This document shows positions 21,902 to 28,584 of a DNA stretch of 64,000 nucleotides, piece by piece. The DNA is taken from positions 1 to 64,000 of the forward strand of contig CANMVY010000007.1 in the NCBI GenBank assembly GCA_947501265.1, given 5' to 3'. Source of the DNA: Bacteroidota bacterium. GTDB taxonomy: Bacteria > Bacteroidota > Bacteroidia > UBA7662 > CANHCV01. The first letter of the stretch is position 1; each line of letters begins with the position of its first letter. The notes under the pieces are model-generated. The model did not search any database. It was given only the letters and a program-made list of their open reading frames with translations, and was not told the DNA's origin. Position numbers and translations under genes: made by a program.

Positions 21902-22763
21902 ATCCGCGCACCTGAATTCCTTGGATTTTAGAATACTCCAGAGCGGGAAAGGGGAATTTGAAGTAATTCATCAAGAAAAAGGTCTTCTTCAAAAATTTAC
22001 TTTTGGTTGGCACCTTGGTAAAATCAATATCTAAACTCGCGTAAAATTCGGAATACCGAGGAGATTTAGAATAATCTTGAATTCCCGACGCATTCTCAAA
22101 AACATTGTCTCCGCCGCCGTAATATCCGTTGATTCCGTAACCGACCGACGCTAGGAGAAAAGGGTATTTCTTCGAAATGGGAACACTCAGCCAATAGGTT
22201 TGGCCATTGTAGTTTTTGAGCATTCGCGAAACGGGACCATTGCCAAACATTTCAGGTCGAACTTCGGCAATAGGATTATTAAGGTAACTGTACTTGAAAC
22301 AAAAATTTCTACTTTCTGGCTTGAGGGCTTGGTAGGTGCCAAGTAATCCTCCGAAAGTATTGGCGATGAGATCTCCAGGCGATGCCCCCCAGCTCTGAGA
22401 TTTACCGTCGAGGTATTCAATTCCGGTTAAGAAAATCACTCCTGACATTCCGCCCCACCATGCCGACTGTTTGGATGTGAATCCGGTAGCACGCATGGCA
22501 GCAACTCCACCTCTTGAGATTTGATAGCAGGTGTGCGCATGTCCTAATTTATCCATTCCTCCCCATTCATGATTGTCGTTGAACCAATGAAAGGAAGTGG
22601 TTTGATTGTTGGAATACCATTGGCTATTTAAAAGACCAAAGGTTGTTCCGCAAAAAGCCGTGTAACCGGTGCCCAGAAACCATCGGTTTCGAAGGGTGTC
22701 GATGTTCTGTGAAAACAAGAATATGCTTGATAAAAGAAATGTGCTAGTCCAGAAAAGCTTCAT
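21894..22763 (-). CDS. DUF2279 exported protein
   Basis: The 289-residue product starts with a signal peptide (MKLFWTSTFLLSSIFLFSQ). The core with FNDNHEWGGMDKLGHAHTCYQ, then IEYLDGKSQSWGASPGDLIANTFG matches DUF2279 (YfiM-like), a family of envelope proteins of unknown function. Hydrophobic stretches at about 60-110 could be membrane-associated. The ATG at 22763 lies inside the end of the upstream gene (20-nt overlap) and is chosen because it gives the signal peptide; a 22-residue upstream extension is cysteine-rich and implausible. Confidence 0.82.
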   Translation of the reverse strand: MKLFWTSTFLLSSIFLFSQNIDTLRNRWFLGTGYTAFCGTTFGLLNSQWYSNNQTTSFHWFNDNHEWGGMDKLGHAHTCYQISRGGVAAMRATGFTSKQSAWWGGMSGVIFLTGIEYLDGKSQSWGASPGDLIANTFGGLLGTYQALKPESRNFCFKYSYLNNPIAEVRPEMFGNGPVSRMLKNYNGQTYWLSVPISKKYPFLLASVGYGINGYYGGGDNVFENASGIQDYSKSPRYSEFYASLDIDFTKVPTKSKFLKKTFFLMNYFKFPFPALEYSKIQGIQVRGFR

Positions 22764-23895
22764 ATTCTTTTTGCTTTTGCAGCAATTGATTCCAAATGAT
22801 GTTGTTTTTGGGATTTTCCAGCAAATCATACATCAAAGGTGCAATGGCTCGAGGAACTGGGGTGGTATTGATTTGGAAAAGGCGTTCTTTAGAAGATGTC
22901 GCTAAATAGGTTGTTATTGGAAGATTATTGACGCTGAGATTGAATTGGTAGAGCTGCTGAAACGAAATGGTGTCGGGTTGAATTCCCGATTTGTACAAGA
23001 GAATGATATCTTTTGCTTCTGAAAGGAGTTCATTTGATTTCCAAGAGATTTTCCTTCGAACAATGATTTGTTCAATTTCGGGAAAATCAAAGTTGATAAA
23101 ATCGTGATTGGAAAAAGGAAATGTATTGAAATATTCTTCAGGTTTCTCGCTAAAAAACTGGGAAATAAGGTCAGAAATCACTTTTCCAACAGGGTCATAA
23201 AGGGAGTGATTGGCGTAGATGAAATGTTGCATCTTTTGAGAGGCGTCCACTGAGTTGTTCTCTGTAAAATGAAACTTTGATTTGAGTTTAGTTTCAAACT
23301 CTACTCCTTGAACGTCATTGAAAAATCTGCCAGCAAAATAAATGACCTCACCAGAGAATCCTCTTTTATGAATCCAATCGTTGAAGTGGATTTCACAATT
23401 CCCATTCATATTGGATGGAATAATCGCGTTGGAGAGGTCGTTTTGAAGTTGCGAATAGGGAAAATAAATCAGTTCAATGTTTTTTACTTCTTTCGTTGAT
23501 TTCCCTTTCTTACCTGAAATAATTTCTTCCTTTTTAAGAATGATGGATAAGCCACCTTGTGCAATTCGAACGGAATCCTTTTCAAAATCCCATTGCTCGT
23601 ACAAAAAAATACCGTCGGCCGAATCCAAACGTTTCTGGTAGTATTTTTCAATCAGCGGGATGTCGGAAGTTTGAATTTTTTGTGTGCAGGACAAGTCGGT
23701 AAATCCATAAATTTTACCCAATCGAAGTTGCAAATACAAGTGATTTAAAAGCGCTTGAGTAACGTTTGTTCCCCAAGTGCTATCTTGTTTTTGAACCAAT
23801 ATTTGGGTAATGGCTTTGTTTTGCGCATGAGAGGTTTGGCCCAAAAGGCAGAAGGTAAGCAACGGAAAAAACAGAAATAACTTCTTGGGAAGCAT
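22744..23895 (-). CDS. Exported protein of unknown function
   Basis: I do not recognise the family of this 383-residue product. It has a signal peptide (MLPKKLFLFFPLLTFCLLGQTSHAQ) and no further membrane segment. The mature part is rich in aromatic and charged residues, with segments such as CEIHFNDWIHKRG and LYDPVGKVISDLISQFF. It probably acts in the periplasm or outer membrane. Its end overlaps the DUF2279 gene by 20 nt, so the two form an operon. Confidence 0.7.
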   Translation of the reverse strand: MLPKKLFLFFPLLTFCLLGQTSHAQNKAITQILVQKQDSTWGTNVTQALLNHLYLQLRLGKIYGFTDLSCTQKIQTSDIPLIEKYYQKRLDSADGIFLYEQWDFEKDSVRIAQGGLSIILKKEEIISGKKGKSTKEVKNIELIYFPYSQLQNDLSNAIIPSNMNGNCEIHFNDWIHKRGFSGEVIYFAGRFFNDVQGVEFETKLKSKFHFTENNSVDASQKMQHFIYANHSLYDPVGKVISDLISQFFSEKPEEYFNTFPFSNHDFINFDFPEIEQIIVRRKISWKSNELLSEAKDIILLYKSGIQPDTISFQQLYQFNLSVNNLPITTYLATSSKERLFQINTTPVPRAIAPLMYDLLENPKNNIIWNQLLQKQKEYEAFLD

Positions 23896-24403: not shown

Positions 24404-25783
24404 TTGCCAGTGAACTATCCATCCTTTCATACCATCAATCCCTTTTCTGAAGAAATCATTTCGGAATACCGTTTTGACACCCTTCAAACGTTGGAGTCGA
24501 AACTTCAAATTGCCCATCAATCCTTTCTTCATCATAAAACAACCTCGATTTCCACTCGAATCGAATGGTTGAAGTCTCTGATTCCAATTCTTGAATCTTC
24601 AAAATTCCATTGGTCAAGTCTCGCAACCATCGAGATGGGAAAGCCTCTTGTTGAAGCTTCGCATGAAGTTGAAAAATGCATCGGACTTTGTCATTATTTC
24701 ATTGAAAATGCCGAATCATTTTTGGCACCTGAGATGATTCCTTATTCCAAAAAAGCGGTTGTAACCAAGTCGCCCGTAGGAGTCGTTCTTGGAATAATGC
24801 CTTGGAATTATCCGTTTTGGCAGGTATTCCGCTTCGCAATTCCGGCTCTCATGTCCGGAAATGCCGTTGTTTTAAAACATGCCCCCAATGTGACTGGGTG
24901 TGCCTTGGCCTTGGAAGATGCGTTCAAAAATTCCTTGTTTCCTGAAAAACTATTTCAGGTGGTATTGGCCGATGTGGATCAAACCCAGCGGTTGATTACC
25001 GATGAACGGGTACAACGGATTTCGTTCACCGGCAGCAACGAAACCGGATTTAAAATTGCTATGGCTGCCGGATCAGTTGGAAAAAAATGTGTCCTTGAAT
25101 TGGGCGGCTCCGATCCCTTCATCGTTTTGAACGATGCTCCCTTAGGTCTCGTGGTTCCACAAGCCATTAAATCTCGCTTCATCAATGCCGGCCAAAGTTG
25201 CATTTCTGCAAAACGGTTTATTGTTCACTCTAGTTTGTACGATGAGTTTGTTGAAAGAATGATTCAAGAGATGCAAAAATTGAGTTTTGGTAATCCGCTC
25301 GAACCCTCAACGCAAATTGGCCCATTAGCCAGGAAAGATTTGCAATCCAAAGTTCTCAATCAAATTCAATCTGCGAAATCCTCGAACAACCAGTTGCTGT
25401 TCGAAGCCGAGGTTCCTTCCGAGGGTTACTTCGTGCCTCTGATGCTTTTTGGCAACATCAACCGATATTCTACGCTTTGGAAAGAAGAAGTTTTTGGTCC
25501 GGTTGCTTCGGTTATTCCGTTTCAACAGGATTCAGAACTGATTGAATTGGCTAACGATACAAAATTTGGGCTTGGAGCAAGTATTTGGAGTAAAGATGTA
25601 GAAAAAGCATTTACCTTGGCGCAACACATCGACGCTGGAAATGTCTATGTAAATGAAATGATGAAAAGTGATTTCGAATTGCCATTTGGAGGAACCAAAC
25701 AATCGGGCTTTGGAAAAGAATTATCCAAATCGGGAATGATGGAATTCGTCAATCTGAAAACTTCAATAATATCTCCATTATGA
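24404..25783 (+). CDS. NAD(P)-dependent aldehyde dehydrogenase (succinate-semialdehyde type)
   Basis: The 459-residue enzyme oxidises an aldehyde, most likely succinate semialdehyde, to the acid. Motifs in order are MPWNYPFWQVFRFAIPAL (substrate and cofactor channel), ISFTGSNETG (Rossmann turn), the general-base Glu in VLELGGSDPF, the catalytic Cys in NAGQSCISAKRF and the C-terminal ELPFGGTKQSGFGKE. The start is a TTG at 24404 or a GTG two codons later. It overlaps the mbnP-like gene by ATGA. The substrate is inferred only from overall resemblance. Confidence 0.88.
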   Translation: MPVNYPSFHTINPFSEEIISEYRFDTLQTLESKLQIAHQSFLHHKTTSISTRIEWLKSLIPILESSKFHWSSLATIEMGKPLVEASHEVEKCIGLCHYFIENAESFLAPEMIPYSKKAVVTKSPVGVVLGIMPWNYPFWQVFRFAIPALMSGNAVVLKHAPNVTGCALALEDAFKNSLFPEKLFQVVLADVDQTQRLITDERVQRISFTGSNETGFKIAMAAGSVGKKCVLELGGSDPFIVLNDAPLGLVVPQAIKSRFINAGQSCISAKRFIVHSSLYDEFVERMIQEMQKLSFGNPLEPSTQIGPLARKDLQSKVLNQIQSAKSSNNQLLFEAEVPSEGYFVPLMLFGNINRYSTLWKEEVFGPVASVIPFQQDSELIELANDTKFGLGASIWSKDVEKAFTLAQHIDAGNVYVNEMMKSDFELPFGGTKQSGFGKELSKSGMMEFVNLKTSIISPL

Positions 25784-26553
25784 AAAAACTTGTCTTATTA
25801 ACCTTGGGAGTAGTCCTGTTTTTTTCATCTTGCAGAAGAAAAACTGGTCCGGATTGTTGTCCGCCTGTCGAACCCGTTGGTAGCATCGAAGTTCATTTGA
25901 ACCATTTGTGGGGAACCGATACCATTGTTCGAAATTCTGGAAAGTATGTAACTGCCAATGGAGATACGGTTATGATTTCAGATATCAAAGGATTGATTTC
26001 AAATTTCAATTTGGAGTTTACAGATCAAACATCCTTCGCGGTAGACGATTATTTTTATTACAAACTTTCTAATTCATCCACCAATACGTTAGTTTTATCG
26101 GGTATTCCTGATGGTGGTTATAAAAAGATGGGTTTTTTCATGGGGGTGGATTCAACAGCAAACCATTCTGATGTTACAATTTACCCAAGAACCAGTGCAT
26201 TGAGTACCTACCAAGCCGGTGGAGAAATGCATTGGAATTGGGCTGATGGATTTATTTTTACCAATATTACTGGGAATTATCGACCAGCCAATGCTTCCCG
26301 ATACAAAGGATTTTCTTTTCATTTAGGCATGGATCAAAATTTGGTGAAGTTTTCTCTTCCCGTTCCAACTTTTACCATTTCAGGCGATTCTCGATTAGTA
26401 GAGATCAATATGGATTGGAAAGAAATGTTTGAATCGCCCAATTTGATCAATATTGCATCTCAGGAAGTGACCCATTCTACCTCAGGTGATACGTTGGCAA
26501 CACGCCTTTCGGCCAACATGTTCAATATGGTTAAAATTGGCTCAGTGAAATGA
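25780..26553 (+). CDS. MbnP-like copper-binding lipoprotein
   Basis: The 257-residue product has a lipoprotein signal (VVLFFSSC, lipid Cys18) and matches the MbnP family. Known MbnP proteins bind copper through histidines and a kynurenine made from Trp by the di-heme enzyme MbnH. Candidate ligands here are His39 and His42, the HWNW motif (His151, Trp152, Trp154) and His181 in FSFHLG. Two MbnH-like genes follow directly, which strongly supports the call. An extra CC pair lies just after the lipid anchor (residues 26-27). The start overlaps the aldehyde dehydrogenase stop (ATGA). Confidence 0.85.
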   Translation: MKKLVLLTLGVVLFFSSCRRKTGPDCCPPVEPVGSIEVHLNHLWGTDTIVRNSGKYVTANGDTVMISDIKGLISNFNLEFTDQTSFAVDDYFYYKLSNSSTNTLVLSGIPDGGYKKMGFFMGVDSTANHSDVTIYPRTSALSTYQAGGEMHWNWADGFIFTNITGNYRPANASRYKGFSFHLGMDQNLVKFSLPVPTFTISGDSRLVEINMDWKEMFESPNLINIASQEVTHSTSGDTLATRLSANMFNMVKIGSVK

Positions 26554-26554
26554 T

Positions 26555-27679
26555 GTGAAGAAAATCATTGCCATTGGAATTCTTTTTGGGGTTTTCTTGT
26601 ACAGTTGTGTGCACGAGCCTATGGATGGAGAGTCGTTTTCCGATCCCACCCCCTACGTTTTCTCTACCCCTGCAGGATTCCCCCCACCCAACTTGCCATC
26701 CGACAATCCGTTAACCGTTGAAGGAATTGAACTGGGAAGGCGTTTGTTTTACGATCCCATTTTAAGCGCAGATTCCACAATTTCCTGTGGCAATTGCCAC
26801 GCCCCCAATGCATCTTTTGCAGATACTTCTCGCTTTTCAAAGGGCATTCGTGGGCAGTTTGGGTACCGACAAAGCATGCCACTTTTCAATTTGGCTTGGG
26901 TAAATGAATTCTTTTGGGATGGACGAGCATCCAGCTTACGAAAACAAATCCATTTCCCCATCGAAGATCCCGTTGAAATGGGAGAACGAGTTGGAAATGT
27001 AGTTCAAAAATTGAATCAGCAACCACGTTATCGAAAAATGTTTAAAAAAGCATTTCAAGTCAACGAGGTGACCGATACACTGATGTTCAAAGCCATCGAG
27101 CAATTTTTGTTAACCATGGTTTCTTCCGATTCCAAGTTTGATCAATGGAGAAGGGGAGAGGTTCAACTGAGTCAGCAAGAATTGTACGGATTGCAAATTT
27201 TTGAAAAAGAAATCTATAATACCACCGTGACGGATGTTCGGTTGATTCCACCTCCTCCAGGAACTTTGGTGGGCGCAGATTGTTTTCATTGCCATGGTAA
27301 CAGGAACAACCCATTTTTTAGCAATAACTTCGGTTACCAAAACAACGGATTGGATGCAGTTCCTTCCGATTCAGGACGAATGCTTGTAACCAAAGATCCC
27401 ACCGATTACGGTAAGTTTAAAATTCCCACCCTTCGAAATTGGGGATTCACATTTCCATACATGCATGATGGACGTTTTCAAACCATCGATCAAGTGTTGG
27501 ATCATTACGAAAAGCCCAATCCATTGTCGCCCAATTTAGATCCAGGAAGCATTGGGAAGTCGGCCACTTACGGATTGAGGTTGCGGGTTTATGAGCGAAC
27601 TGCCTTAAAGGCCTTTTTGAACACATTGAACGACACGGCGTTCACCACCAATCAGCGCTACCAAAGCCCTTTTCGATGA
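26555..27679 (+). CDS. MbnH-like di-heme peroxidase, complete motif set
   Basis: The 374-residue lipoprotein (lipobox FLYSC, Cys18) belongs to the CCP/MauG superfamily and probably oxidises a Trp in the adjacent MbnP. It has two c-type heme sites, Cys78-Cys81-His82 (CGNCH) and Cys243-Cys246-His247 (CFHCH). The inter-heme motif FFWDGR has Trp121, the position used for electron transfer in this superfamily, and FPYMHDGRF carries Met303. The start is GTG at 26555, one base after the mbnP stop. Its stop overlaps the next di-heme gene by ATGA. Confidence 0.87.
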   Translation: MKKIIAIGILFGVFLYSCVHEPMDGESFSDPTPYVFSTPAGFPPPNLPSDNPLTVEGIELGRRLFYDPILSADSTISCGNCHAPNASFADTSRFSKGIRGQFGYRQSMPLFNLAWVNEFFWDGRASSLRKQIHFPIEDPVEMGERVGNVVQKLNQQPRYRKMFKKAFQVNEVTDTLMFKAIEQFLLTMVSSDSKFDQWRRGEVQLSQQELYGLQIFEKEIYNTTVTDVRLIPPPPGTLVGADCFHCHGNRNNPFFSNNFGYQNNGLDAVPSDSGRMLVTKDPTDYGKFKIPTLRNWGFTFPYMHDGRFQTIDQVLDHYEKPNPLSPNLDPGSIGKSATYGLRLRVYERTALKAFLNTLNDTAFTTNQRYQSPFR

Positions 27680-28584
27680 AATTTCACGTTGCTTTGGTAC
27701 TAACTTTCCTATGGAGTTGCCAAAGAACCAACTCACCATTTGAGTTTCCTCCCATTAAAGAACCTGCAAACAACCGCACTTCTCCTGAAAGAATTGATTT
27801 GGGGGAAAAACTATTCTTCGACTCATTGCTCAGCAGCGATTCGAGTATTTCCTGCGGCAGTTGTCACCAACCCTATCATGCCTTCTCTTCTCCCCAACCT
27901 TTAACATCAGGGGTACATGGTTCTCTTGCGAAACGAAATGTTCCTGTTTTAATCAACCTCGCTTGGAGTCCCTATTTCATGTTTGAAGGTGGATTGCCAA
28001 CCTTGGAAAAGGTGAGTCTTTCTCCCATTCAAGATGCGATTGAAATGAATTTACCTTTCCCCGAATTGATCGAGCGATTGAAATCGCACTCCGAATATCC
28101 TTCGTTGTTTAAGAAGGCATACGGTGAAGGACCCACTCCATCTTCCGTTGTACGGGCTTTAGCGGCATACCAAAGAAGCATCCAATCCACCCAAACGCGT
28201 TGGGATCAATTCGTAACCAGTAGGGTGGAACTTTTCAATGATGCCGAGAAAAAAGGTTGGCAATTGTTTATGGGGAAAGCCAAATGCCAATCTTGTCACC
28301 CGCCACCGTTGTTTACCGACTTTCAATTTCATGCTATTTTGCCTTACGATGGTGATGATGGCCGATATCGCATAGATCCTCGTCCAGCCATGAAAGGGGC
28401 ATTCAAAACTCCAACGCTGCGCCAATTGGCTTTTTCTGCTCCCTACTTCCATCGAGGAACTGCTGCTAATTTAGATGAGGTATTAAATGCTTATGCTTCC
28501 ACGCAGAACTCCAATGCAAACGTAAGATTATCCAAAGAAGAAAAAGCGCATCTGGTTGCTTTTTTGTTGACGTTAAGTCGATAA
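27676..28584 (+). CDS. Second MbnH-like di-heme protein, diverged
   Basis: The 302-residue lipoprotein (lipobox FLWSC, Cys15) is a paralogue of the preceding gene with heme sites Cys60-Cys63-His64 (CGSCH) and Cys204-Cys207-His208 (CQSCH). It differs at telling places: the WDGR motif is FEGG (Phe103 replaces the inter-heme Trp), and PYMHDG is PYFHRG (Phe258 replaces Met). It may be an electron carrier or have a different substrate rather than being a second MbnH. ATGA coupling with the first copy suggests joint synthesis. Confidence 0.83.
   Translation: MKFHVALVLTFLWSCQRTNSPFEFPPIKEPANNRTSPERIDLGEKLFFDSLLSSDSSISCGSCHQPYHAFSSPQPLTSGVHGSLAKRNVPVLINLAWSPYFMFEGGLPTLEKVSLSPIQDAIEMNLPFPELIERLKSHSEYPSLFKKAYGEGPTPSSVVRALAAYQRSIQSTQTRWDQFVTSRVELFNDAEKKGWQLFMGKAKCQSCHPPPLFTDFQFHAILPYDGDDGRYRIDPRPAMKGAFKTPTLRQLAFSAPYFHRGTAANLDEVLNAYASTQNSNANVRLSKEEKAHLVAFLLTLSR

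Follow-up and report, generated by a model that had tools for sequence, protein, structure and literature searches.

The closest described relatives of the locus studied here are pairs of a copper protein of the MbnP type and a di-heme protein of the MbnH type, and such pairs are conserved far beyond the producers of methanobactin (PMC3621798). The need for a tryptophan between the two hemes in long-range protein oxidation is contested: work on MauG supports it, while BthA does without this residue (PMC6405878). In the present locus, situated in a 64,000-nucleotide stretch (the whole DNA analysed, hereafter the window) of contig CANMVY010000007.1 of a Bacteroidota bacterium, an MbnP-family gene, probably for a copper-binding lipoprotein, is followed by two di-heme genes, of which the first (DH1) encodes the inter-heme tryptophan and the second (DH2) does not. 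MbnP/MbnH pairs are already known, and the unequal trio with a Trp-less second di-heme gene is a variant of them. Trp-bearing and Trp-less di-heme proteins found repeatedly beside the same substrate offer a natural and direct test of the role of the inter-heme tryptophan.

Gene run and heme-pocket residues

The + strand of the window has a run of four genes, encoding an aldehyde dehydrogenase, MbnP, DH1 and DH2, joined by ATGA, 1 bp and ATGA junctions, respectively (Table 1). MbnP passed the gathering score of PF20243 (107.4 bits against 27). The cut-off of the NCBIfam MbnP equivalog TIGR04052 was not reached (35.1 bits against 140), and neither DH1 nor DH2 reached the cut-offs of TIGR04039 (MbnH; 210.5 and 174 against 362.85) or TIGR03791 (MauG; 141.1 and 176.9 against 443.85). 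As all three proteins fall below the NCBIfam cut-offs, the names MbnP and MbnH denote here kinship and not equivalence. With the predicted model of MbnP (pLDDT 89), the only fold-search matches at E ≤ 0.001 were chains of 7l6g, the MbnP of Methylosinus trichosporium, with the WNW motif of which W152 and W154 align. The closest solved relative by sequence was the MbnH 6e1c for both DH1 and DH2, and the same structure ranked first in the fold search with the predicted model of DH2 (pLDDT 71). Judged by eye, each of the three proteins has a candidate lipoprotein-signal cysteine near the N-terminus (Cys18 in MbnP and DH1, Cys15 in DH2).

The residues of the heme pocket were assigned by their spacing from the inter-heme residue, after NgBCCP (Trp98, Gln108, Pro112, Glu118; PMC10094543) and BthA (Ser257, Gln267, Pro271, Glu277; PMC6405878). 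DH1, a PF03150 protein adjoining mbnP, has CxxCH motifs at 78 and 243, W121, Q131, P135, E141 and the motif PYMHDG, and its inter-heme Trp and axial Tyr (Y318) are as in 6e1c. DH2 likewise belongs to PF03150, is linked to mbnP and has two CxxCH motifs (60 and 204), but F103 occupies the place of the inter-heme Trp, and V113 that of the distal glutamine; P117 and E123 are present. This combination differs from that of a BthA-like protein, in which Trp is absent and Gln, Pro and Glu are intact. In bacterial peroxidases, changing either the pocket Gln or the pocket Glu is reported to abolish activity (PMC10094543). The axial Tyr aligned with that of MbnH is retained in both proteins, being Y273 in DH2, where it aligns with a Met of the peroxidase 3o5c; neither protein therefore has the Met ligand of the C-terminal heme by which classical bacterial cytochrome c peroxidases (CCPs) are recognized.

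An earlier note on this DNA had described, at 25780-28584, an MbnP accompanied by two dissimilar di-heme proteins, from one of which the inter-heme Trp is missing. This is borne out by the family matches and the residues, and the coordinates, the junctions and the residues quoted (W121 and PYMHDG; F103, F258 and PYFHRG) were found as described. Its statement that DH2 had lost a Trp and a Met stands only in that Phe103 occupies the Trp position. The Met of PYMHDG was rejected as a meaningful residue: crystallised CCPs (3o5c and others) read PYFHDG or PYFHSG in its place, and PYFHDG is present also in the Trp-type copy of cluster C4 of the same genome. Because solved CCPs have Phe at this position and the axial Tyr is kept, the change to F258 is no loss of a heme ligand. 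By the trees described below, the Trp of DH2 was not lost following a local duplication either. The note is extended here by the loss of the distal-pocket Gln in DH2, which it did not mention, by the aldehyde dehydrogenase as a fourth linked gene, and by the generality of the unequal pair, which it had missed.

Table 1. Position and main features of the genes and codons of the MbnP locus in the window.
Feature	Position	Strand	Details
Aldehyde dehydrogenase	24404-25783	+	PF00171; ATGA overlap with mbnP
MbnP-family lipoprotein, 257 aa	25780-26553	+	PF20243, E 1.1e-30; Cys18, W152/W154 (WxW), H151, H181, H232
W152-N-W154 codons	26233-26241	+	Aligned with WNW of solved MbnP 7l6g
DH1, Trp-type MbnH-like di-heme protein, 374 aa	26555-27679	+	PF03150, E 2.7e-53; GTG start 1 bp past mbnP
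Trp121 codon (inter-heme, DH1)	26915-26917	+	
DH2, Trp-less di-heme protein, 302 aa	27676-28584	+	PF03150, E 3e-44; ATGA overlap with DH1
Phe103 codon (inter-heme position, DH2)	27982-27984	+	
Val113 codon (place of distal-pocket Gln, DH2)	28012-28014	+	

Recurrence and descent of the unequal pair

PF20243 was present in 296 of the 395 Bacteroidia genomes. Rank-free counts were based on an even draw of 75 genomes, of which 50 have MbnP; 97 regions around the listed matches were fetched in addition to those of the window's own genome. A locus was regarded as tandem when its genes lay on one strand within 500 bp. In this even sample, 15 of the 16 MbnP loci with two di-heme genes, the window included, had exactly one Trp and one non-Trp copy, the non-Trp residue being R, K, M, A or F; the sixteenth (L181) had two Trp copies. 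A limit of 450 bp gave 14/15. Loci with a single di-heme gene retained the Trp in 57 of 63 cases. The probability of at least 15/16 unequal loci by chance was ~1e-6 (pooled Trp frequency 74/95, independence), a figure that shared descent makes too small and that is a guide only. For the named set, a DH2 profile was used to select 80 loci from among the matches listed, a choice that favours Trp-less copies. Tandem di-heme genes were present at 17 of these loci and were unequal at 16, the other being Neolewinella maritima with two Trp copies; L054, one of the 17, is without MbnP on its contig piece. Named isolates with the unequal cassette are Cryomorpha ignava (L105) and Aureispira sp. CCB-QB1 (L082). 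Among the matches listed in both sets, the non-Trp copy came first in 20 of the 31 unequal pairs and the Trp copy in eight, and in three the copies flanked MbnP.

This wide recurrence of the lopsided trio in Bacteroidia suggests that the unequal pairing is selected and not an accident. The departure from the usual pairing of one MbnP with one MbnH, pointed out in the earlier note, is real, but the arrangement is recurrent and no oddity of this genome, as the search for other tandem pairs suggested there made evident. A rule of one Trp and one non-Trp copy without exception was rejected: Trp is present in both copies of L181, which are sisters in the tree, and of L124 (Neolewinella maritima), as well as in three second copies within the order of the window.

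The Trp copies of tandem loci often have Gln at a position where nearly all others have Asn (8/17, e.g. Q106 of DH1, against 1/57 of the single Trp and 0/21 of the non-Trp copies). This Asn is the presumed calcium ligand.

Within the order of the window, MbnP was present in 19 of the 21 genomes, and the run of MbnP, first copy and second copy in 16 (in G001 split over two contigs), while two more runs end at contig edges. The second copy of G352 is cut short by the end of its contig. First copies kept W, P, E and Y in 15/15 and Q in 14/15, G002 having L. In the second copies, the Trp was replaced by F, K, R or A in 13/16 and the Gln by Val in 10/16; the other six, all of genus g6, are not in register, a three-residue insertion making the Gln column uncertain, and in the alignment with this insertion also their Pro and Glu are changed. 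G352 and G311 have Ser in place of the Pro. All 16 second copies retained the Tyr and both of their CxxCH motifs. Mean identity was 57% among the first copies and 41% among the second, the latter being lower in 105/105 comparisons. With dN/dS of 0.095-0.121 (0.062 in DH1), DH2 is under strong purifying selection. This, together with the retention of the run in 16 of the 21 genomes, makes the tandem more than a matter of chance. Unlinked relatives of DH2, which the earlier note would have taken as evidence against its view, were looked for, and linkage to mbnP was found to be kept in both the order and the class.

For the trees, proteins of <280 or >700 aa and duplicates were excluded and long ones cut to their last 400 residues; the single or orphan Trp copies were represented by a random draw of 45, to which any in loci L050-L059 were added. 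In the 136-row tree, 47 of the 54 non-Trp copies formed part of one 51-row group and the Trp copies of pairs were placed in the other half, with many deep forks weak and DH2 of the window just outside the group. The non-Trp label required seven changes on this tree, compared to 42.6 in shuffles. The second tree consisted of 70 of these rows and the copies of the order. It placed DH1 in a starred 24-row set together with the first copies of the order, pair-type Trp copies and the fused protein of L133, and divided the second copies of the order into three starred groups with unresolved deep placement. An origin of DH2 by recent local duplication of DH1 was rejected by both trees. Judging from these sequences, DH1 and DH2 look like old paralogues from different branches of the family that have been kept together.

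Among the matches listed in the DH2-anchored set, 24 of the 33 non-Trp copies shared a run with MbnP. The remaining nine include two at contig edges and three (L055, L071 and L116) with an MbnP on the opposite strand within 1.6 kb. A Trp-type copy was also present in all six checked genomes with a non-Trp neighbour of MbnP. In the Chthoniobacter metagenome-assembled genome (MAG) contig JANXSB010000131.1, a single 597-aa open reading frame (L133:2583-4376, +), as assembled, fuses MbnP with a Trp-type di-heme protein, which supports the view that the two work together.

The window's own genome has six PF03150 genes and four MbnP genes. Three of the latter belong to MbnP/di-heme clusters (C1, C4 and that of the window), and the fourth is a solo MbnP. 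The solo MbnP gene (G000:C3:260935-261435) and a solo Trp-type di-heme gene (G000:C3:66084-66518) are far apart on one contig. The genome had no match to MbnB (TIGR04159), the one methanobactin gene searched for; this agrees with the stand-alone copper system of the earlier note, although independence of methanobactin is ordinary (PMC3621798).

The aldehyde dehydrogenase lies directly upstream of the run in seven genomes of the order (G000, the window's own genome, and G001, G002, G018, G062, G218 and G395). This placement spans two families of the order, the proteins of the window and G018 being 39% identical. Near the operon, the gene at 22744-23895 (-) encodes a GldN-like protein of gliding motility (PF19841, 26.9 bits; cut-off 23). 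At L206 (G003:C13:6656-23767), three MbnP genes are found within 7 kb, together with a single di-heme gene that follows the first of them.

Proposed roles and their alternatives

The operon may be a protein-maturation cassette of the MbnP/MbnH type with a third, non-equivalent di-heme part. The N-terminal heme of DH1 would react with peroxide, the oxidising equivalents would spread over both hemes via Trp121, and DH1 would then oxidise a Trp of the WxW motif of MbnP, the product being kynurenine in characterised relatives; MbnP thus oxidised could bind copper. The oxidation of MbnP by DH1 is proposed from what is known of the family, i.e. the kynurenine of CorA and MopE (PMC3912023) and the title of the MbnP paper as it appears in the reference list of PMC9426467. 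DH2 would be a dedicated partner of DH1 or MbnP and not a second Trp oxidase, serving either as a di-heme conduit for electrons or as a docking subunit that holds the substrate in position. Electron transfer or docking is favoured because DH2 has lost both the Trp and the distal Gln while keeping its hemes and the Tyr. The full pocket of DH1 speaks for its role as the oxidase, and the recurrence of the unequal pair in both gene orders, the Trp-type copy in all six genomes checked and the fused protein of L133 speak for a partnership. This assignment, with DH1 as the MbnH-type oxidase of MbnP and DH2 as a conserved partner, is made tentatively, doubt and confidence being close to balanced.

Several observations weigh against it. 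BthA, with Ser in place of the Trp, is nevertheless able to form bis-Fe(IV) and to reduce peroxide (PMC6405878), so that the absence of the Trp is no proof of lost bis-Fe(IV) chemistry. The model of DH2 is weak, with residues 102-108 and 117-125 at pLDDT < 50, and is uninformative on the geometry of F103 and V113. Class-wide, the non-Trp tandem copies mostly keep the peroxide pocket (Gln in 12/15, Pro and Glu in 15/15), and the partner may therefore well react with peroxide in other lineages. The axial Tyr is Phe in six of these 15 copies (L180, L191, L201, L204, L205 and L207) and is present in 17/17 Trp copies. Three second copies of genus g6 (G398, G269 and G332) have Trp at the inter-heme position. 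The distances of the Trp copies, the non-Trp copies and MbnP were correlated over 30 loci (r 0.68 Trp-nonTrp, 0.82 Trp-MbnP and 0.75 nonTrp-MbnP; 0/2000 permutations as high), which speaks for a partnership, but vertical descent shared by the three would give such correlations as well. What the second copy does may vary from lineage to lineage. The three g6 copies with Trp (L274, L275 and L276) combine it with changed Pro and Glu, and sister species have Ala, the Trp having been either regained or retained.

The main alternative, which is rather unlikely, is a division of labour in two steps, in which DH1 would start the oxidation of the MbnP Trp and DH2 either finish it from an oxygenated intermediate or oxidise the second of the two WxW tryptophans. 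It has a precedent in PA2077 (W251) and PA2078 (S243) of Pseudomonas aeruginosa, which act sequentially, PA2078 using the hydroperoxide made by PA2077 (PMC4496055), and the class-wide retention of the pocket is in line with it, although DH2 of the window is without the distal Gln. W154 of MbnP was present in 33/33 unequal-pair loci and 15/15 loci with a lone non-Trp copy, compared to 61/80 lone-Trp loci, but 61 of these 80 loci have both Trp of the motif with no second di-heme gene in the run. The MbnP residue trends, moreover, follow the tree. D131 and H232 were each found in 33/33 unequal-pair loci against 20/80 and 22/80 lone-Trp loci, respectively, a strong contrast in the raw counts, but the independent-pairs test, made for H232 and covering neither W154 nor D131, was not significant; an association of H232 and D131 with the Trp-less partner independent of descent was accordingly rejected.

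Less probable still is that DH2, as a peroxidase of the BthA kind, acts on the H2O2 near DH1 and MbnP, removing or metering it and leaving MbnP untouched. BthA turns over H2O2 with Tyr/His ligation and no Trp (PMC6405878), and DH2 retains Pro117, Glu123 and Tyr273. The Gln kept in BthA (Gln267) is, however, lost in DH2, in one genus of the order the second copies have changed Pro and Glu as well, and simple scavenging leaves the tight linkage to mbnP unexplained. A DH2 that takes no part in the maturation of MbnP, being a paralogue that hitch-hikes or decays, is very improbable: the faster evolution and the pocket erosion of the second copies, and their presence in only part of the MbnP loci, would fit decay, but dN/dS of about 0.1, the heme motifs and axial Tyr retained throughout the order, and a link to mbnP that holds in many families, whichever copy comes first, argue against it.

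A more general proposition can be made, namely that the trio is a widespread two-component machine for protein oxidation in Bacteroidia, in which MbnP would be matured by an obligate pair of Trp and Trp-less di-heme proteins that has stayed together in many families and with either copy first, the Trp-less one having a distinct and necessary job. This is possible but on balance somewhat doubtful.

Comparison with known systems

Searches of a library of open-licence papers gave no description of MbnH pairs, tandem or unequal, next to MbnP; as the two main MbnP/MbnH papers lie outside this coverage, the arrangement is not claimed to be unpublished. The MbnP/MbnH system of M. trichosporium (7l6g and 6e1c) shares with the window the gene pair, the MbnP fold, the WxW motif and the Tyr at the axial position, and its MbnH is closest to both DH1 and DH2. 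The window differs in its second, Trp-less di-heme gene, in scores far below the NCBIfam cut-offs, in having no MbnB match and in the upstream aldehyde dehydrogenase. In MopE/SACCP and CorA/CorB of methanotrophs, too, a copper protein whose copper site includes kynurenine adjoins a di-heme protein resembling a peroxidase (PMC3912023, PMC3621798), but the di-heme partner is a single one, and these copper proteins show no marked similarity to MbnP (PMC3621798).

The oleate-diol synthase pair PA2077/PA2078 of P. aeruginosa resembles DH1 and DH2 as tandem di-heme genes with the inter-heme Trp in one and Ser in the other (PMC4496055), but these proteins act on fatty acids, are about twice the size, RoxA-like and without an MbnP. 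BthA of Burkholderia (6nx0) resembles DH2 in its two hemes, in their Tyr/His ligation and in the absence of the inter-heme Trp, and differs in the Ser at that position, in the retained Gln267 and in having a phosphatase as neighbour instead of MbnP (PMC6405878). With MauG, the fold and the Tyr axial ligand are shared, and in DH1 also the inter-heme Trp, whereas both proteins score below the cut-off of its family and the substrate of MauG is unrelated to MbnP.

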